From: Acidobacteriota bacterium
Lineage (GTDB): Bacteria; Acidobacteriota; UBA6911
DNA length: 32,662 nucleotides
NCBI GenBank assembly: GCA_031271905.1
Contig: JAISUT010000067.1
Span: 1-32,662 of the forward strand
Direction of reading: 5' to 3'
Shown: positions 16,586 to 32,305 of the stretch, one piece after another
Layout: each line of letters begins with the position of its first letter
Position numbering within the stretch: the stretch's first letter is position 1
The notes under the pieces: model-generated
Database searches by the model: none
What the model was told of the DNA's origin: nothing
What the model saw: the letters and a program-made list of their open reading frames with translations, nothing else
Program-made: the position numbers and the translations under genes

Positions 16586-16644
16586 CAAACACTAAAATTT
16601 CCCATTTGCAAACACTAAAATTTTCCCCTTGCAAACACTAAAAT
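16586..16644 (+). repeat. Three iterons (CAAACACTAAAAT) at exact 23-bp spacing
   Basis: The 13-bp core CAAACACTAAAAT occurs at 16586-16598, 16609-16621 and 16632-16644. The start-to-start distance is 23 bp each time. The first two copies are followed by a similar TTTCCC/TTTTCCCC stretch, and copies two and three are preceded by TTG. The block is strikingly AT-rich for this genome and ends 18 bp before a TATAAT box, so the third copy covers the -35 position of the ATPase promoter. It is a probable regulator-binding array. Confidence 0.8.
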
Positions 16645-16661
16645 CCGATTCGTGCTTCGAG

Positions 16662-16667
16662 TATAAT
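16662..16667 (+). promoter_or_regulatory. -10 box of the AAA/DUF4143 ATPase gene
   Basis: A perfect TATAAT lies 37 bp before the start codon. The -35 position at 17-bp spacing falls on the end of the third iteron (TAAAAT) and does not resemble TTGACA, so activity may depend on a protein bound to the iterons. CCCCC at 16670-16674 could pair with GGGGG at 16694-16698, which is part of the ribosome binding site. Confidence 0.6.
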
Positions 16668-16704
16668 AGCCCCCGTAAGGTATTGGCAACACAGGGGGAA
16701 CATT

Positions 16705-17982
16705 ATGCTGACGCCTGAAGGGTATCGCCGCAGGATCATCGACCGGCGCATCGACAGCCTGCTCAAACTGTTCGGCGCGGTGTGCGTGGAGGGGAGCAAG
16801 TGGTGCGGCAAGACTTGGACGAGCCTTAATCACGCTGGTAGCGTGTATTACGTCGGCGACCCGGCTGGCGATTATCAAAACCGGCGGTTGGCCGCGCTCG
16901 ACCCGCCTTACGCGTTGCAAGGCGAAATCCCGCATGTGATCGACGAATGGCAGGAAGTTCCCGGGCTTTGGGACGCCGTGCGATTCGCCGTGGACCAATC
17001 GCGGGACAAGGGGCGTTTTATCCTGACCGGATCCTCCGTGCCGCCGAACCGGTCGATTCTGCATACCGGCACGGGGCGGATCGTCCGGCTGCGGATGCGC
17101 CCGATGTCGCTGGCGGAATCCGGCGATTCCACCGGGGAGGTGTCGCTGGCCGGACTTTTCGCGGGAGGATCGCCCCGCGCACGGAACGAGGTGTCGCTCG
17201 ATACGATTATTCGGCTGGCTGTGCGCGGCGGCTGGCCGGGCGCCATCGGGTTGGACGATGACGGCGCGCGGGAAATCTCGGTGCATTACATCGAGCAGAC
17301 CGCGCGGGAGGACATGTCCCGGGTGGACGGGAAAAAGCGCAATCCCGGCAAGGCTGCCCGTCTGTTGCGCTCGTTGGCCCGCAACAACCAGACGATGGTT
17401 TCCAACCAGACTTTGCTGGCGGATACGAGGGAAGGAGGTTCGCCGCAGGTCTTCTCCGAACCGACGCTGATCTCGTATCTGGAGGCGTTGAAGAAACTTT
17501 TCGTGATCGAAGAACTGACGGCTTGGAGTCCGCGACTGCGCTCGACGACGCGTATGCGCGTCGCCGCTAAAAAACATTTCGTGGATCCTTCGCTCGCCAT
17601 CGCCGCCCTTGGCGCCACGCCGCAAAAATTGAAGGACGACCTCAACACCTTCGGTTTCATGTTCGAGAACATGGCCGTTCGAGACCTGAAAATATATGCC
17701 GAAGCGTGCGGAGCCAAGGTGCATCACTACCGCGACAATTCCGGTTTGGAAATCGACGTCATCCTCGAAACGCCCGACGGCGGATGGGCGGCCTGCGAAG
17801 TCAAGCTGGGCGTGAACGACGCCGACAAGGCGGCGGAGTCCCTGCTCCGGCTGAAAGGAAAGATCGTGGGCGCGGGAGGCGAAGCGCCGGTGTTTCTGGC
17901 GGTCGTCTGCGGCGTGGGCGATTTCGCCTATGTCCGCGAAGACGGCGTCATGGTCGTTCCCCTGACCAGCTTGGGGGCTTGA
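16705..17982 (+). CDS. AAA-family ATPase with DUF4143 domain
   Basis: This is a 425-residue protein of the AAA_14 plus DUF4143 family, common as solitary genes in bacteria and archaea; the biological role is not established. Walker A is GSKWCGKT (30-37), in the family's characteristic form. Walker B is HVIDEWQ (about 77-83), and FILTGSS (about 110-116) is the sensor-like strand. The DUF4143 half includes NNQTMVSNQTLLADT, SYLEALKKLFVIEEL, and a C-terminal nuclease-like strand pattern, NSGLEIDVILETPDGGWAACEVKLG. That E...D...E-x-K arrangement recalls PD-(D/E)XK folds, which is inference. The ATG is preceded by AGGGGG. The region looks less GC-rich than its neighbours and has its own iteron-bearing promoter, which suggests an independently acquired unit. 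It is not obviously co-transcribed with flanking genes. Confidence 0.9.
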   Translation: MLTPEGYRRRIIDRRIDSLLKLFGAVCVEGSKWCGKTWTSLNHAGSVYYVGDPAGDYQNRRLAALDPPYALQGEIPHVIDEWQEVPGLWDAVRFAVDQSRDKGRFILTGSSVPPNRSILHTGTGRIVRLRMRPMSLAESGDSTGEVSLAGLFAGGSPRARNEVSLDTIIRLAVRGGWPGAIGLDDDGAREISVHYIEQTAREDMSRVDGKKRNPGKAARLLRSLARNNQTMVSNQTLLADTREGGSPQVFSEPTLISYLEALKKLFVIEELTAWSPRLRSTTRMRVAAKKHFVDPSLAIAALGATPQKLKDDLNTFGFMFENMAVRDLKIYAEACGAKVHHYRDNSGLEIDVILETPDGGWAACEVKLGVNDADKAAESLLRLKGKIVGAGGEAPVFLAVVCGVGDFAYVREDGVMVVPLTSLGA

Positions 17983-23134: not shown

Positions 23135-24628
23135 ATGGCAAAAAAAATCGATGTTACCGAACTCATCCTTCGCGACGCCCACCAGAGCGTGATGGCGACG
23201 CGACTGGGGATCGAGGACATGATCCCCGTCTGCGGGGACTTGGACAAGGCAGGGTTCTGGTCGGTGGAGTGCTGGGGCGGCGCGACGTTCGACTCCTGCA
23301 TCCGCTTCCTGAACGAAGACCCCTGGGAGCGGTTGCGCACCTTCCGCAAGCTCATGCCCAACACGCGCCTGCAGATGCTGTTGCGCGGGCAGAACCTGCT
23401 GGGGTACCGGCACTATGAAGACCATGTGGTGGACCGCTTCGTCGAGAAAGCCGCCGAAAACGGCATCGACGTGTTCCGCATCTTCGACGCGCTGAACGAC
23501 ATCCGCAACCTCGAGCGCGCCATCGCCGCCGTCAAACGCACCGGCAAGCACGCCCAAGGCGCCATCAGCTACACCGTCAGCCCCTTGCACACCATCCAGG
23601 GCTTCGTGGACACCGCCAAGAAGATGAAGGAGCGCGGTTGCGACTCCATCTGCATCAAGGACATGGCCGCGCTGCTCAAGCCGCAGCCCGCCTACGACCT
23701 GGTCAAGGGCATCAAGGACGCCTGCGGCCAGGACACGCGCGTGCAAGTCCACGTCCACGCCACCACCGGCGTCACCATGGTCAGCCTGATGAAGGCGATC
23801 GAAGCGGGGGCGGACGGCGTGGACACCGCCATCAGCGCGCTCAGCCTCGGCCCCGGCCACAACCCGACCGAATCCTTCGTCGAGATGCTGGAAGGGACCG
23901 GCTACACCGCCGACATCGACTCCGAGCTGCTTTTGAAGATCAAAAAATATTTCCTCGGCATCCGCAACAACTATAAGGAATACCTTTCGAACATCACCGG
24001 CGTGGAGACGGAGATCTTCAAGAGCCAGATCCCCGGCGGAATGCTCTCGAACATGGAAAGCCAGTTGAAGCAGCAGAAGGCCGACGACCGCGTGGACGAG
24101 GTGCTGGAGGAGGTGCCGCGCGTGCGCAAGGACAGCGGCTATCCGCCGCTGGTCACCCCGTCGAGCCAGATCGTCGGCACCCAGGCGGTGTTCAACGTGC
24201 TGATGGGCAAGTACAAGGTCCTGACCGGCGAGTTCGCCGACCTGATGCTCGGCTACTACGGCGAGACCATCGGGCCGCGCGACCCCGAGGTGATCGAGCT
24301 GGCTGCAAAGCACGCCAAGAAGGAGCCCATCACCTGCCGTCCCGCCGACCTGCTCAAGCCGGAATGGGACACGCTCAAGGCCGAGGCGCTGGCCCTGCCG
24401 GGCTGCAACGGCTCGGACGAGGACGTGCTGACCGTCGCCATGTTCCCCAAGGTCGCGCCCAAGTTCTTCACCACCCGTGACAAGGGGCCGCTGAACTTGG
24501 GCAAGGAGTCGGCATCCAAGCCCGCCGCGCCCGCCGTGGACACCGGCAAGGGCCCGGTGCGCATGGAAATGTCTTACAACGTGAAACTCAACGGGAACTC
24601 GCACCGGGTGACCGTCACTCCGGCATAG
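23135..24628 (+). CDS. Methylmalonyl-CoA carboxyltransferase 5S subunit (pyruvate/oxaloacetate site)
   Basis: The 5S subunit moves the carboxyl group between carboxybiotin and pyruvate, forming or consuming oxaloacetate, in the soluble transcarboxylase complex. The 497-residue product begins with the DRE-TIM barrel metal site LILRDAHQS. The carboxylated active-site lysine K175 is in CIKDMAALL, and metal histidines H206/H208 are in HVHATTG. The long matches FWSVECWGGATFDSCIRFL, ETEIFKSQIPGGMLSNMESQ and GYPPLVTPSSQIVGTQAVFNV are those of the Propionibacterium 5S protein. HVHATTG fits 5S (HCHSTTG) better than pyruvate carboxylase or OadA (HxHDTxG). The C-terminal tail (MEMSYNVKLNGNSHRVTV) resembles the first strands of a biotinyl domain but stops before any AMKM, so biotin must be supplied in trans. 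It is first in the cluster, with AGAGAGAG upstream. Confidence 0.93.
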   Translation: MAKKIDVTELILRDAHQSVMATRLGIEDMIPVCGDLDKAGFWSVECWGGATFDSCIRFLNEDPWERLRTFRKLMPNTRLQMLLRGQNLLGYRHYEDHVVDRFVEKAAENGIDVFRIFDALNDIRNLERAIAAVKRTGKHAQGAISYTVSPLHTIQGFVDTAKKMKERGCDSICIKDMAALLKPQPAYDLVKGIKDACGQDTRVQVHVHATTGVTMVSLMKAIEAGADGVDTAISALSLGPGHNPTESFVEMLEGTGYTADIDSELLLKIKKYFLGIRNNYKEYLSNITGVETEIFKSQIPGGMLSNMESQLKQQKADDRVDEVLEEVPRVRKDSGYPPLVTPSSQIVGTQAVFNVLMGKYKVLTGEFADLMLGYYGETIGPRDPEVIELAAKHAKKEPITCRPADLLKPEWDTLKAEALALPGCNGSDEDVLTVAMFPKVAPKFFTTRDKGPLNLGKESASKPAAPAVDTGKGPVRMEMSYNVKLNGNSHRVTVTPA

Positions 24629-24705
24629 CATATCATGGCGGGACGCGCTCGCCCGCGTTGCTTGCGGCGGGGGCGCTCCGCCACCTTAAATTAAGGAATT
24701 TCGAC

Positions 24706-26259
24706 ATGGCTGAAAAAACAATGCAGGACAAAATCGAGGAATTGCGCGCCAAACGCGCCAAGACGATGCTGGGCGGCGGCCAGGACAAGCACGACAAGCA
24801 GCACAAGCAGGGCAAGCTGACCGCGCGCGAACGCATCGACGCGATGGTCGATCCGGACAGCTTCGAGGAGACCGGCCTTTTCGCCCAGCACCGCGCGACG
24901 CTGTTCGGCATGGCGGGCAAGGAGTTCCCCGCCGACGGCGTGGTCACCGGAGCGGCGTCCGTCGGCGGACGGCTGGTCCATCTGGCGAGCCAGGACTTCT
25001 CCGTCTCGGGCGGCGCGGCCGGCGAGGTCCACTCCATCAAGGTGGCGGAGATCATGGAGCAGTCGCTGAACACCGGCTCCCCCTTCATCTTCATCAACGA
25101 CTCGGGCGGCGCGCGCGTGCAGGAGGGCATCGACTCGCTCTCCGGCTACGGAAAGGTGTTCTACACCAACGTCGTGCTTTCGGGCGCGGTGCCGCAGATA
25201 TCCCTGATTTGCGGCCCCTGCGCGGGCGGCGCGGCCTACAGCCCGGCGCTCACCGACTTCATCATCCAGACCCGGCAGGCGCAGATGTTCATCACCGGCC
25301 CCTCGGTCATCAAGAGCGTCACCGGCGAGAACGTCACGGCGGAGCAGCTCGGCGGCGCGGACGCGCACATGGCCAACTCCGGCGTCATCCACTTCGTCGC
25401 CGAGAACGACGACCACGCCATCCAGATCTGCCAGAAGCTGCTCAGCTTCCTCCCATCGAACAACCTGGAGGACCCGCCGATCGTGGAGGGCGACCCGAAC
25501 CTCGACCCCAACCCGGAGCTGAACGACGTGGTCCCCACCGACACCAAGCGGGGCTACGACGTGCGCGAGGTCATCACCCGCGTGATCGACTTCGGCGACT
25601 TCCTGGAGGTGCAGGCGGGCTACGCCATGAACATCGTGGTGGGATTTGCGCGCATCAACGGCCGGTCGGTCGGCATCATCGCCAACCAGCCCATCGTGCA
25701 GGCCGGGGTGCTGGACATCAACTCGTCCGACAAGGCGGCGCGTTTCATCCGCTTCTGCAACGCCTTCAACATCCCGATCGTCACCTTCGTGGACGTGCCG
25801 GGCTTCCTGCCGGGGGTGCAACAGGAGTACGGCGGCATCATCCGCCACGGCGCGAAGATGCTCTTCGCCTATTCCGCCGCCACGGTGCCGAAGATCCAGG
25901 TCATCCTGCGCAAGTGCTACGGCGGCGCCTATCTGGCGATGTGCGGCAAAGACCTCGGCGCAGACCGCGCCTACGCCTGGCCCACGGCGGAAGTCGCGGT
26001 GATGGGCGCGGAGGGCGCGGCGGAGATCGTGTTCCGCAAGGAGATCATGGAGGCCGAGGACAAGACGGCCAAGCGCAAGGAGCTGGTCACCGAGTATCGT
26101 GAAGCCTTCTCCAACCCCTACGTGGCCGCCAGCCGCAGGCTGGTGGATTCGGTCATCGAGCCGGCCATGACGCGGCGTCACATCGCCCAGGCGCTCGAGT
26201 ACCTGCACACCAAACGCGAACTGCGGCCTGCCAAGAAGCACGGCCTGATTCCACTATAG
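24706..26259 (+). CDS. Methylmalonyl-CoA carboxyltransferase 12S subunit / MmdA-type carboxyltransferase
   Basis: The 12S subunit takes the carboxyl group from methylmalonyl-CoA to biotin, or the reverse. It is a crotonase-fold carboxyltransferase of 517 residues, the usual length. The N-terminal half has KLTARERIDAMVDPDSFEE, the oxyanion-hole segment INDSGGARVQEGI, and the acyl-CoA site GPCAGGAAYSPALTDF. The C-terminal half has the biotin site VDVPGFLPGVQQEYGGIIRHGAKMLFA and KCYGGAYLAMCGKDLGAD. The same fold serves propionyl-CoA carboxylase beta and the sodium-pump methylmalonyl-CoA decarboxylase alpha. The adjacent 5S and 1.3S genes, and the absence of biotin carboxylase and MmdB, point to transcarboxylase. 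The start at 24706 follows TAAGGA; an earlier ATG (24658) adds residues unlike the family. Confidence 0.94.
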   Translation: MAEKTMQDKIEELRAKRAKTMLGGGQDKHDKQHKQGKLTARERIDAMVDPDSFEETGLFAQHRATLFGMAGKEFPADGVVTGAASVGGRLVHLASQDFSVSGGAAGEVHSIKVAEIMEQSLNTGSPFIFINDSGGARVQEGIDSLSGYGKVFYTNVVLSGAVPQISLICGPCAGGAAYSPALTDFIIQTRQAQMFITGPSVIKSVTGENVTAEQLGGADAHMANSGVIHFVAENDDHAIQICQKLLSFLPSNNLEDPPIVEGDPNLDPNPELNDVVPTDTKRGYDVREVITRVIDFGDFLEVQAGYAMNIVVGFARINGRSVGIIANQPIVQAGVLDINSSDKAARFIRFCNAFNIPIVTFVDVPGFLPGVQQEYGGIIRHGAKMLFAYSAATVPKIQVILRKCYGGAYLAMCGKDLGADRAYAWPTAEVAVMGAEGAAEIVFRKEIMEAEDKTAKRKELVTEYREAFSNPYVAASRRLVDSVIEPAMTRRHIAQALEYLHTKRELRPAKKHGLIPL

Positions 26260-26274
26260 GGACGAGGCGAACTT

Positions 26275-26688
26275 ATGGCGCAAACCGCAAAGACAAACGC
26301 AAAGACGAAAGAGCAGTCGAAAGACTTGCTCGCGGCACTCGGCGAGGTGCGGGCGCAGCTCGCCGTGCTCGCCGAGGCGCAGGCGCAACTCGCCGAGCGC
26401 GTGGCGCAACTCGAGGGGAAGGTTCCGTCCGCCGCCGCCCCGGCGTCGGTGACGCCGCCGCCGGAGGCCCCGAAACCGGCGCTGCCCGTCGCGCCCGCCG
26501 CGCCCGCCGCGCCCGCGAAGCAGGAGATCGGCGAAGAGGAACTCCTGGTCATCTCGGCGGCGCTGGGCGCGTATCTCGGAGTCCGGGTCCACATCCGGCA
26601 GGTCCGGCTGCTCAGCTCCTCGGCATGGGCGCAGCAGGGGCGCGTGTCGGGCATGGCGCACATCCCATACACACATACTACTAATTAG
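26275..26688 (+). CDS. Small accessory subunit of the carboxyltransferase complex (coiled coil, Pro/Ala linker, IxxALGAYLG domain)
   Basis: This is a 137-residue protein of uncertain role in three parts. Residues ~15-50 form a heptad-like helix (LLAALGEVRAQLAVLAEAQA). Residues ~52-85 are a Pro/Ala linker like those of biotin carrier proteins. Residues ~88-130 hold ELLVISAALGAYLGVRVHIRQ and SSSAWAQQGRVSGM. That last block resembles the small C-terminal module of methylmalonyl-CoA or oxaloacetate decarboxylase gamma/delta/epsilon subunits (I..A..YLG..IR...S.WA..GR). There is no transmembrane helix, unlike OadG/MmdD. Placement between the 12S and biotin-carrier genes (15 bp and 8 bp gaps) supports a structural or assembly role in a soluble complex. 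The function is inference. Confidence 0.75.
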   Translation: MAQTAKTNAKTKEQSKDLLAALGEVRAQLAVLAEAQAQLAERVAQLEGKVPSAAAPASVTPPPEAPKPALPVAPAAPAAPAKQEIGEEELLVISAALGAYLGVRVHIRQVRLLSSSAWAQQGRVSGMAHIPYTHTTN

Positions 26689-26696
26689 GAGTTTTT

Positions 26697-27098
26697 GTGA
26701 AACTTAACGTGAAGATCGATGGAAAGACCTACGAGGTGGATGTCGAGGCCGTCGAGCAGGAATCCTCCGTCCCCCAGACCCGCCTCTATGTGACGGGCGC
26801 CCCGACGGTACGCGGAGCCGCGCCCGTCGCCGCGCCTGCGGCGACCCCGGCCCCTGCGGCGTCTTCCGCTCCGGTCGCGGACGAAAGCAAAGTCTGCCGC
26901 AGCCCTGTGTCCGGCATCGTGATCAAGTCTGTGGCGAAGGAAGGGCAGAGCCTCCAGTCCGGAGAAACCATCATGGTGCTGGAAGCTATGAAAATGGAAA
27001 CGAACATTGCAGCGCCCGGCGCGGTCAAGGTCGCCAAGCTCCTCGTCAAAGAGGGCGACAGCGTCCAATCGGGTCAGGTGCTGGTGGAGTTTGAATGA
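26697..27098 (+). CDS. Biotin carboxyl carrier protein (transcarboxylase 1.3S subunit)
   Basis: This subunit carries the biotin that shuttles CO2 between the 12S and 5S subunits. It has 133 residues: an N-terminal strand pair (MKLNVKIDGKTYEVDVEAV), an Ala/Pro linker (about 43-62), and a biotinyl domain with SPVSGIVIKSVAKEGQ and EAMKMETN, where K99 is the biotinylation site. The start is GTG with an excellent TTAGGAG five bases upstream. The ribosome binding site overlaps the previous gene's stop region, suggesting translational coupling. The 3' end overlaps the epimerase start by 4 bp (ATGA). No biotin ligase is in the window; one must be encoded elsewhere. Confidence 0.95.
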   Translation: MKLNVKIDGKTYEVDVEAVEQESSVPQTRLYVTGAPTVRGAAPVAAPAATPAPAASSAPVADESKVCRSPVSGIVIKSVAKEGQSLQSGETIMVLEAMKMETNIAAPGAVKVAKLLVKEGDSVQSGQVLVEFE

Positions 27099-27568
27099 TG
27101 ACAGCGGAATTGGAACAGGTGCCGGGATTCATATGTTTTGACCATATCGCCGTGGCGGTCAAGCCGGGCGAGCTGGACGACCACGTCGCAGCCTACAAGG
27201 CGATGGGCTTCACGGAGCTGCACCGCGAGGAGATCTTGGGCAAGGACCAGGTGCGGGAGGTGATCTTCCGCGTCGGCGACGGGCCGAACCTCTTGCAGCT
27301 CATCGAGCCGCTGAACGAGACTTCCCCCGTGACCAAGCAGATCGAGAAGATGGGCGGTCGCGGCGGCTTCGTCCACATGGCGTTGCGCGTCAAGGACATC
27401 CAGAAGGCGTTCGACCACCTGAAAGCCAGCGGCTTCAAACTGGTGGACGCGGCCCCGCGCCCCGGCTCGCGCGGCACGATGGTCTTTTTCATCCACCCCA
27501 AGGCGACCGAGAAGGCGGCTTTCGGCTTCCTGATCGAGGTGGTGCAGGAGGGGGCGGCCCATGCCTGA
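27095..27568 (+). CDS. mce: Methylmalonyl-CoA epimerase
   Basis: This enzyme interconverts (R)- and (S)-methylmalonyl-CoA, linking the mutase to the transcarboxylase. It belongs to the vicinal-oxygen-chelate/glyoxalase fold, with 157 residues. Two babab modules are visible. The first has FDHIAVAVKPGELDDHVA with a metal-binding histidine, and NLLQLIEPLNETSPV. The second has GGFVHMALRVKDIQKAFDHL with another histidine, and AFGFLIEVVQ with the final glutamate. SRGTMVFFIHPK fits the substrate pocket region of known epimerases. It overlaps the biotin carrier gene by 4 bp and the mutase small-subunit gene by 8 bp, so the block is tightly coupled in translation. A second ATG directly follows the first; either could be used. 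Confidence 0.94.
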   Translation: MMTAELEQVPGFICFDHIAVAVKPGELDDHVAAYKAMGFTELHREEILGKDQVREVIFRVGDGPNLLQLIEPLNETSPVTKQIEKMGGRGGFVHMALRVKDIQKAFDHLKASGFKLVDAAPRPGSRGTMVFFIHPKATEKAAFGFLIEVVQEGAAHA

Positions 27569-28958
27569 CGCTGAAATCAAACTGAACCTCGCCGCCGAGT
27601 TCCCCCCCACCCCCACCGCCGAGTGGGAGGACGTCATCGCCAAGGACCTCAAGGGCGCCGACTACGAGAAGAAGCTGGTGTGGCGCACCGAGGAAGGCTT
27701 CTCCGTGCGCCCCTACTACCGCCGGGAAAACCTCGCCGGGCTCGAAGGGCAGTTGGCCCTGCGCCGTACGAAAAGCGGCTGGGAGATCAGCGAGCAGTTC
27801 GCCCCCGCCGCAGACGCCGTGCGCGCCGACCTCCTGCACGAAGGCGGGGCGACCGCCATCCAGGAGCTCGGCTACGGCATAGCCGAGGGGGTTGAAAAGC
27901 TCGCGGCGCTTTCCGAGAAGAAGCCGGTGGAGGAAGCGGCGGGCGAGATGGAGTTCGTCTTCGCCGCCGGCCCCAGCTACTTCAACGAAATCGCCAAGCT
28001 GCGCGCCGCGCGCCTCCTCTGGGCGCAAGTCGCCGCCGCCTTCGGCGCGAAAAGCCCCGTCGCCATGAAAATCGCGGTGCGCACGCCGCGCCGCAACAAG
28101 AGCGTCTTCGACCACAACACCAACCTGTTGCGGGCGACGACCGAGGCGCTGTCCGCCGTCCTGGGCGGTTGCGACGCGCTGTACGTCGAGCCGTTCGGAT
28201 TCGACCGGCACATCGCCGTGAACATCCAAAGGATATTGCAGGAAGAGTCGCACCTGGACGCGGTGGCAGACCCCGCCGGCGGCTCGTACTACATCGAGTC
28301 GCTGACCGACGCCATCGCCCGCGAGGCGTGGAAGCTCTTCCAAGGCGTCGAAGCCGAAGGCGGTTTCACGAAGGCCAAGGAGTCCGGCTCCATCGGCAAG
28401 GCCATTGAGGCGGCGCGCGCGGCGCGGGAGAAGTCTCTGACCAGCCGCCGCAAGGCCCTGGTCGGGGTGAACAACTTCCCGAACCTCATGGAGACGGCCG
28501 CGGACATCCAAGATGTGCAGCCTCCCAAGGCCGAGTGCGAGCATGAGTACCGCGTGGCGACGCCGTTCGAGGCGATCCGCCGGCGCACGCTCGATTTCGC
28601 CAAGGCCAAGGGGAAGGCCCCCAAGGTGCTGCTCCTGACGCGGGGCGACGTGAAGATGAAGGGGGCGCGCTCGAACTTCGCCCTCAATTTCTTCGGTTGC
28701 GCCGGGTTTGCCATCGAGACTTCCGAGGAGTACGCCGGTTCGGACGCCGACCTGATAGTCCTTTGCAGCTCCGACCCCGAATACCTGGCCTTCGCCAAGG
28801 ACGTCTGCCCCAAGGTGAAAGTCCCGGTCATCGTGGCAGGGAACCCGAAGGACCAGATCGAGGCGCTCGAAGCCGCCGGAGTCAAGGGCTTCATCCACGT
28901 CCAGAGCGACGCGGCGGCGACCTTGGCCGATTGGCAAAACAAACTTGGTATGGAATGA
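27561..28958 (+). CDS. mutA: Methylmalonyl-CoA mutase small (beta) subunit, shortened
   Basis: This is the non-catalytic partner of the mutase heterodimer, 465 residues. The usual MutA has about 600-640. N-terminal part: [32 protein letters not shown]. Barrel part: [21 protein letters not shown], then [25 protein letters not shown] and [17 protein letters not shown]. The C-terminal flavodoxin-like domain ([29 protein letters not shown]) lacks the DxHxxG cobalamin-ligand motif, as expected for MutA. Between residues ~110 and ~150 a short linker replaces what is normally ~150 residues of barrel. The reading frame is intact and the junction is smooth, so this looks like a natural short form, not a frameshift. 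The stop is 10 bp before the large-subunit start. Confidence 0.9.
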
Positions 28959-28968
28959 GGAGCGGGCG

Positions 28969-31089
<2,121 letters not shown>

Positions 31090-31103
31090 CGCACATTGTC
31101 GGC

Positions 31104-31121
31104 GCGGGGCGCAAGCCCCGC
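31104..31121 (+). terminator. GNRA-loop hairpin after mutB
   Basis: A 7-bp GC stem, GCGGGGC / GCCCCGC, is closed by a GCAA tetraloop, 15 bases after the mutB stop. It has no T tract. It is likely an mRNA 3'-end stabiliser preceding the true terminator. Confidence 0.45.
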
Positions 31122-31153
31122 CTCGGCCGGATGGACAGCCAGTCTCCAACGGG

Positions 31154-31183
31154 AAAGGGCGGCTCTTCGCGGGGCCGCCCTTT
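31154..31183 (+). terminator. Intrinsic terminator of the transcarboxylase-mutase operon
   Basis: A perfect 10-bp stem, AAAGGGCGGC / GCCGCCCTTT, with a 10-nt loop lies 65 bp after the mutB stop. The short T run is part of the stem's 3' arm (TTTG follows), so it may act in both directions. It separates mutB from meaB. Confidence 0.75.
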
Positions 31184-31246
31184 GTGCCGACATGGAATCG
31201 ACATGATTCGCGGGGCGGGGGGGGCATGGAACTGTCTTACACTGGT

Positions 31247-31276
31247 TTGACGGCCAGCGGTTGAAAATTTGATATT
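31247..31276 (+). promoter_or_regulatory. Candidate sigma70 promoter of meaB
   Basis: TTGACG (31247-31252, 5 of 6 consensus bases), an 18-bp spacer and GATATT (31271-31276, 4 of 6) lie in an AT-rich stretch 46 bp before the meaB start codon. Together with the terminator upstream, this suggests meaB has its own transcript. Confidence 0.45.
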
Positions 31277-31321
31277 TATGGTTATGGACAGGCTCGCCTA
31301 GGAAAACCGACCGTCGCCATT

Positions 31322-32305
31322 ATGAAACGTCTTTCTCTGGAACAATACGTCGATGGCGTGCTCGCGGGGGACCGCGTGACCCTCGCCCGGGCCATCACCG
31401 TCATCGAAAGCGACCTTGCCTCGGACGCCGACCTGGCCGCGCGGATGCTCGACCGGCTCCTGCCGCACGCGGGCGGTGCGCGGCGCGTGGGCGTCACCGG
31501 CGTCCCCGGCGCGGGCAAGAGCACCTTCATCGACGCGCTCGGCGTGATGCTCATCCACGAATATGGCGAAAACCTCGCCGTGCTGAGCATCGACCCGTCC
31601 AGCCCCATCTCCGGCGGCAGCATCCTCGGCGACAAGACCCGCATGGAGCGGCTGGCGACCGAGGAGCGCGCCTTCATCCGGCCTTCCCCCTCGCGGGGGC
31701 ATCTGGGCGGGGTGGCGCGGCGCACGCGCGAGACCATGCTCCTGTGCGAGGCCGCGGGCTACCGCAACATCCTGGTCGAAACGGTGGGGGTGGGGCAGTC
31801 CGAGACCGCCGTCCGCTCCATGACCGACTTCTTCCTGCTCCTGATGCTGGCCGGAGCGGGGGACGAGCTGCAAGGGATGAAGCGCGGCATCATCGAGATG
31901 CTCGACGGCATGTCGATCACCAAGGCGGACGGCGACAACAAGCCCAAGGCGGAGAGGGCGCGCAACGAGTACGCCCACGCCCTGCACCTGTTCCCCGCCT
32001 CAGCCGACGGCTGGACGCCGCCCGTGCTGACCTGCTCGTCGGTCACGGGCGAGGGCTTGCACGAACTCTGGCAGACGATCCTGGAGCACCGGCAGCTCCT
32101 GGAGGGCAACGGCTTTCTCGCCAAGCGCCGGAGCCGCCAGGCGCTGGAGTGGATGGACGAGCTGCTCCTGATGGGCTTGGAAGACTCCTTCCGGCAGGAC
32201 GCGACGGTGGCTGAGCACCTGCCGAGGCTGCGCGAGGAGGTGCGGCGCGGCGCGGCCACCCCGTTCGCCGCCAGCCGCGACCTCCTCCGCATGTACCGCC
32301 GGTAG
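31322..32305 (+). CDS. meaB: MeaB/ArgK-type G3E GTPase, methylmalonyl-CoA mutase chaperone
   Basis: MeaB uses GTP to gate cobalamin loading and to protect or repair methylmalonyl-CoA mutase. It has 327 residues, the usual length. The P-loop is GVPGAGKST (60-68). The G3E-family Mg motif region is DPSSPISGGSILGDKTRM, and RGHLGGVARRTRETMLLCEAAGY and the Walker B/switch region ILVETVGVGQSE follow. The base-specificity motif is TKADGDN. The C-terminal dimerisation helices end in LLRMYRR. No strong ribosome binding site precedes the ATG; AGGAAAA lies ~20 bp away. The location directly downstream of mutAB fits the usual genetic linkage. It is the only gene of the pathway here outside the main operon. 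Confidence 0.96.
   Translation: MKRLSLEQYVDGVLAGDRVTLARAITVIESDLASDADLAARMLDRLLPHAGGARRVGVTGVPGAGKSTFIDALGVMLIHEYGENLAVLSIDPSSPISGGSILGDKTRMERLATEERAFIRPSPSRGHLGGVARRTRETMLLCEAAGYRNILVETVGVGQSETAVRSMTDFFLLLMLAGAGDELQGMKRGIIEMLDGMSITKADGDNKPKAERARNEYAHALHLFPASADGWTPPVLTCSSVTGEGLHELWQTILEHRQLLEGNGFLAKRRSRQALEWMDELLLMGLEDSFRQDATVAEHLPRLREEVRRGAATPFAASRDLLRMYRR

Follow-up and report, generated by a model that had tools for sequence, protein, structure and literature searches.

A 23-bp direct-repeat array with private unit spelling upstream of DUF4143 ATPase-nuclease genes, a predicted operator in bacteria and archaea

Results

Repeat array and promoter at the window locus

The DNA analysed here, hereafter the window, was a stretch of 32,662 nucleotides of contig JAISUT010000067.1 from an Acidobacteriota bacterium, and the element under study was an array of short direct repeats in front of a gene encoding an AAA_14/DUF4143 ATPase (Table 1). 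Three copies of the 13-mer CAAACACTAAAAT were present on the + strand with a spacing of exactly 23 bp, in phase as described in an earlier note made from the sequence alone. The array was the top-scoring direct repeat of the window when all lags from 10 to 60 were compared. Its lag-23 score was 30 compared to 10 for the next lag-23 segment, and three equally spaced identical 13-mers did not occur in any of 100 order-1 Markov copies made from the window. A TATAAT hexamer began 17 bp after the last core, and this core covered a -35 position that reads TAAAAT and not a consensus -35, which bore out the promoter arrangement given in the earlier note. The gap of 17 bp was common to the window and its nearest homologues (L051 and L052). 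The reported AT-rich block was confirmed with a GC content of 34% in 16586-16667 compared to 66% across the window, and just 0.06% of 82-bp blocks were as GC-poor. A search of the 3.4-Mb genome showed that the exact 13-mer was confined to the three array positions. With up to two mismatches, 20 occurrences were found genome-wide compared to 32 for the reversed control, showing no excess, and no regulon elsewhere in the genome was found with the window unit beyond its own locus.

Conservation of the 23-bp period

A scan of 85,000 species genomes produced 80 homologues of the window ATPase, with hosts among Clostridia, Coriobacteriia, spirochaetes, Bacteroidales, Akkermansia, Propionibacteriaceae, archaea and others. 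The best upstream self-match lag was exactly 23 in 73 of the 75 non-redundant homologues from bacteria and archaea, compared to 5/77 downstream of the stop codon, 3/72 further upstream and 5/80 in shuffled sequence. When the clade was enlarged to include paralogues, lag 23 was found in 120/124, and it was also found in 6/6 members of a subclade with 32-34% identity and in 4/4 of the loci L040-L043. A hold-out set of viral, plasmid and phage records fetched later showed lag 23 in 13 of 14 cases compared to 6.4% of random stretches of the loci, the sole miss being a Rhizobium protein with 30% identity. The arrays had a median of 3.2 units, and the median distance from array end to start codon was 34 bp. 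The gene was rare on plasmids (44/72,556) and phages (4/50,697), and exact arrays of two unit types were not found in 2.9 million viral contigs.

About 16 DUF4143 loci were present in the window genome and five belonged to the clade of the window ATPase, which is thus not the orphan described in the earlier note. All five clade members showed a significant upstream 23-bp period with differing unit sequences. Overall, the 23-bp period was conserved and the unit sequence was not. The conserved upstream array that had been proposed was therefore present as a spacing cognate to the ATPase but not as a motif sequence, and for this reason a search of homologue upstream regions for CAAACACTAAAAT-like sites would have come up mostly empty beyond the nearest relatives.

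Private spelling of the repeat unit

Unit spelling differed between most paralogues, and similar units were found mainly between close relatives. Own units matched upstream of the own gene 324 times and units borrowed from other loci 8 times. The unit of L052 was found around its own gene only, and the core of L013 had three exact matches at its own gene and one elsewhere. Two genomes were rich in homologues, a Methanoplasma archaeon with 19 and a Micrococcales metagenome-assembled genome with 18, and 13-16 paralogues were analysed in each. The median unit similarity between the Micrococcales paralogues was 0.41 compared to a background of 0.42 for unrelated loci. The Methanoplasma units were somewhat more alike (median 0.49), presumably in part through shared AT-richness, and close paralogues had similar units in both genomes. 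In genomes G022 (L161-L174) and G033 (L181-L196), one ATPase clade had grown to 18-19 members within a small genome, with some copies in tandem and some broken by stops.

A further copy of the array was found downstream of the gene at L052 (4335-4405, 71 bp, 97%), about 100 bp before a murI-like open reading frame, and at L182 (approximately 2040-2121, 82 bp, 93%). A third downstream match, at L074, consisted of one site only, which lay at the stop codon. The copies at L052 and L182 may be remnants of a tandem duplication or may reflect insertion of the gene at an array.

Predicted ATPase-nuclease protein

The window protein had Pfam matches over the cut-offs with AAA_14 (3e-11) and DUF4143 (1e-30) and a PADLOC match with PDC-S01 (5e-59). 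PADLOC models also matched nine other DUF4143 paralogues scanned in the window genome. A sequence search of the PDB with the window protein returned no chain at E ≤ 1. The AlphaFold2 model had a predicted local distance difference test score of 95.4 and a predicted template modelling score of 0.93. For residues 1-303, the best of all structural matches were the archaeal ATPases PABY2304 (2qen, Z 14.9) and SSO1545 (Z 13.4), followed by plant NLRs and CED-4 with Z of about 11-12. Given these fold matches, the N-terminal 300 residues or so are, as modelled, a STAND/AP-ATPase with nucleotide-binding domain, helical domain and winged helix in the STAND order. The Walker A and Walker B residues were invariant among homologues. 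The C-terminal part has the residue pattern of an active PD-(D/E)XK nuclease with a predicted intact site, in which E349 and D351 were conserved in 115/115 homologues and E365 and K367 in 114/115.

Covariation of the unit with the winged helix

Unit similarity increased with protein identity (Spearman 0.51, Mantel p 0.002), the rise occurring above about 55% identity, and such a trend alone could be produced by common descent. Among pairs 50-85% identical, residue 253 had the strongest link to unit similarity beyond overall identity (t 13.7 compared to 9.1 for the next residue), and residues 238, 251 and 252 were also among the top seven. All four residues are located in the winged helix of the model, where DSSP assigned the recognition helix to 252-264 with residue 253 at its start. 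Glutamate at residue 253 was paired with T at core column 7 in 17/19, aspartate with A in 15/17 and asparagine with A in 6/7, while asparagine was also paired with T at core column 9 in 7/7. Residues 228-266 held 10 of the top 20 core-column couplings compared to 2 expected (p 8e-6 in a hypergeometric test that treats couplings as independent). For linker columns, 4/20 couplings in the main subset fell in the winged helix, which was no significant excess, and one of three subsets had 5/20 (p 0.05). When the winged helix was excluded from tree building, edge-disjoint pairs that differed at core column 7 also differed at residue 253 in 10/10 cases, compared to 7/19 for pairs with the same base, and residue 253 ranked first of 425. 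A sliding-window scan of protein segments was not exclusive, as 335-354, 270-285 and 395-410 scored like 245-262, and the base-level couplings were therefore relied on.

Promoter geometry and neighbouring genes

A TATAAT box with at most one mismatch was found near the array end in 61 of 100 bacterial loci compared to 28 in Markov copies, and -10-like boxes peaked 3-4 bp after the array end. For 30 of the 61 loci with TATAAT, the best -35 was spaced by 17 bp and had at most two mismatches. At many loci the last core fell on the -35 and -10 hexamers or in the space between them, and in the window and its two nearest homologues it overlapped the -35. A protein on the last core would meet RNA polymerase in either geometry. 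Because the array is upstream of the predicted transcription start, it most likely acts as DNA and not as RNA. No recurrent partner gene was found near the ATPase, as no real flanking family occurred in more than 5 of 80 loci. Two larger flanking clusters (26 and 16 loci) were apparent antisense frames of homologous ATPase genes, judged by position only.

The window gene is located on a 98.9-kb contig between URO-D-like and malate/lactate dehydrogenase genes. No replication protein was found beside the array on this contig, and plasmid-type iterons of a replication origin were rejected. The neighbouring dehydrogenase was missing from the other genus members examined, so there was no empty site to compare for mobility. 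Next in strength among the direct repeats of the window was one with lag 30 at 26328-26401, an ordinary repeat within a coding sequence that contains a proline/alanine-rich linker. In addition, a methylmalonyl-CoA pathway-like cluster, read from translations only, was present at 23135-32305 with carboxylase subunits, a biotin carrier, an epimerase, two mutase subunits and a MeaB-like GTPase.

Table 1. Coordinates of the array, promoter and gene features in the window
Feature	Position	Strand	Basis
Array unit 1, 23 bp, core CAAACACTAAAAT at 16586-16598	16586..16608	+	Exact repeat, lag-23 segment
Array unit 2, core at 16609-16621	16609..16631	+	Exact repeat, lag-23 segment
Array unit 3, core at 16632-16644, overlapping the -35 position	16632..16654	+	Exact repeat, lag-23 segment
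TATAAT, predicted -10 box	16662..16667	+	Sequence
AGGGGGA, likely ribosome-binding site	16693..16699	+	Sequence, inferred
AAA_14/DUF4143 ATPase-nuclease, 425 aa, PADLOC PDC-S01, predicted array reader	16705..17982	+	Pfam, PADLOC, AlphaFold2
Codons 228-266, winged helix (recognition helix 252-264)	17386..17502	+	DSSP on model; couplings (residue 253)
Codons for E349, D351, E365 and K367, predicted PD-(D/E)XK active site	17749..17805	+	Conservation

Other DUF4143 clades and another ATPase-nuclease family

In the same genomes, DUF4143 clades other than that of the window ATPase, in small samples, showed upstream direct repeats of 22 bp (L222, L244, L263, L208) or 32/33 bp (L121, L238, L243, L247, L254, L250, L259, L265), or strong, long promoter palindromes instead of direct repeats (L216, L229, L201, L228, L206, L231, L204). 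Neither repeats nor palindromes were found for 21 of 74 other DUF4143 genes. The periods of 22 and 32/33 bp come close to an integral number of helical turns with one or two extra bases. In the related-looking PDDEXK_9 ATPase-nuclease family, where start codons were assigned crudely, no arrays were found. With other periods or palindromes in other clades and no arrays in PDDEXK_9, the geometry of the operator appears to be a characteristic of individual DUF4143 clades.

Discussion

The array is probably a private operator of the ATPase gene, which the ATPase would bind through its winged helix to repress its own transcription, a reading drawn from sequence comparison. Of the two binders named in the earlier note, the ATPase itself or a dedicated factor, the former is favoured by the winged-helix covariation and by the lack of a recurrent neighbour family. 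Since unit spelling changes with the predicted DNA-reading helix, the most likely account is that the ATPase binds its own gene and controls it. In each 23-bp unit, the winged helix of a single ATPase protomer would read one core of about 10-13 bp, and the protomers would be aligned along the array, perhaps cooperatively, at 2.2 helical turns per step over the core promoter. The ATPase would repress its own gene until its state changed, through ATP/ADP exchange or through a signal, infection for example. Such a switch would limit itself and keep the amount of a dangerous effector low, a logic that is likely because the same protein has an intact predicted nuclease site.

Several observations weigh against autorepression through the winged helix. 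The pairs that differed at column 7 were more distant than the same-base pairs (median 0.64 compared to 0.27), and ancestry partly confounds that comparison. Residues outside the winged helix also scored high (157, 8 and 330, and windows near 340 and 397), and residue 253 was not leading among pairs 40-60% identical. Downstream array copies, found in 2 of 95 loci in the orientation of the upstream array, are not needed by plain autoregulation. Finally, a repressor and an activator would leave identical traces, and the non-consensus -35 of the window could fit activation.

Were the ATPase an activator in the manner of MalT or IniR, the units in front of a weak promoter would recruit RNA polymerase after ATP-driven assembly. 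The STAND/AP-ATPase fold of the N-terminal 300 residues and the window promoter agree with this, and the STAND-like ATPase IniR turns on a promoter (PMC5760070). Activation is nonetheless unlikely, as the last core is often placed where a bound protein should block the polymerase and archaea, with different promoters, have arrays of the same period. Use of the array mainly as a docking, loading or target site, whether for assembly of the ATPase-nuclease in the manner of iterons or a partition site or for movement or recombination of the gene through the array, would account for the iteron-like geometry, the intact nuclease residues and the two loci with array copies flanking the gene. We consider this improbable given how few loci have a downstream copy, the position of the array against a promoter with a favoured -10 offset, the failure to find exact arrays of two unit types in viral contigs and the rarity of the gene on plasmids and phages.

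A separate DNA-binding protein encoded elsewhere is very improbable as the reader, because a factor of its own would be required for every paralogue analysed in the two homologue-rich genomes, real flanking families occur in at most 5 of 80 loci and the covariation sits in the winged helix of the ATPase itself. Chance or neutral tandem slippage could draw on the AT-rich upstream region of the window, and microsatellite-like growth can create repeats. This explanation was refuted by the lag-23 counts in homologues, enlarged clade and hold-out set, with negative controls, since a period of exactly 23 bp holds in different phyla and in both domains, despite differing unit spelling and with GC-rich genomes included.

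Beyond autorepression, we tentatively raise a wider model, doubtful as a whole, in which the arrays would be address labels of orthogonal DNA-templated STAND switches. Each ATPase would assemble on its own array with a clade-specific geometry (steps of 22, 23 or 32/33 bp, or a palindrome), and this would set its level and hold or arm the nuclease. Genomes with up to 18-19 copies would hold many insulated protein-DNA pairs, and a simple recognition code formed by residue 253 and its neighbours would reassign pairs in evolution.

PDC-S01 is a phage-defence candidate whose validation is pending, and it was reported to be fourth in frequency among the defence systems of prokaryotes (PMC12988326). 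The window system resembles it in the PADLOC match and in combining an ATPase with PD-(D/E)XK in a very widespread family (PMC12988326), but the 23-bp array is confined to a portion of PDC-S01. Open-access literature on PDC-S01 described no operator or DNA motif. Direct-repeat operators are of a known kind. RptR, a defence-linked autorepressor of a defence island, is similar in that three direct repeats at the promoter of RptR mediate its action (PMC12255303). RptR is a dimeric repressor apart from the effector with 9-bp repeats, each with a 6-bp palindrome of conserved sequence (PMC12255303), whereas here the effector-like ATPase is the predicted reader, the units are 23 bp and their spelling varies by gene. 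MalT and IniR (PMC5760070) are comparable as STAND-type ATPases acting at promoters. They have a separate C-terminal DNA-binding domain, whereas in the window protein the DNA would be read by the winged helix of the STAND core, with a nuclease domain after it. For the structurally closest proteins, SSO1545 and PABY2304, we know of no DNA target. The open-access literature contained only an unrelated mention of DUF4143 and no description of 23-bp arrays of this kind, subscription papers and preprints being outside the search. As far as was searched, a fixed-period, hypervariable and protein-matched operator across bacteria and archaea for DUF4143 ATPases is new.

With a cognate DNA site for each copy, PDC-S01, a system of unknown function, gains a predicted and testable DNA target, and the arrays offer reporters for the inducing signal that the switch would respond to, together with a predicted recognition code. 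Most work on the winged helix of STAND ATPases has dealt with it as a regulatory module of immune receptors in plants and animals. The results suggest that in this prokaryotic branch it reads DNA.
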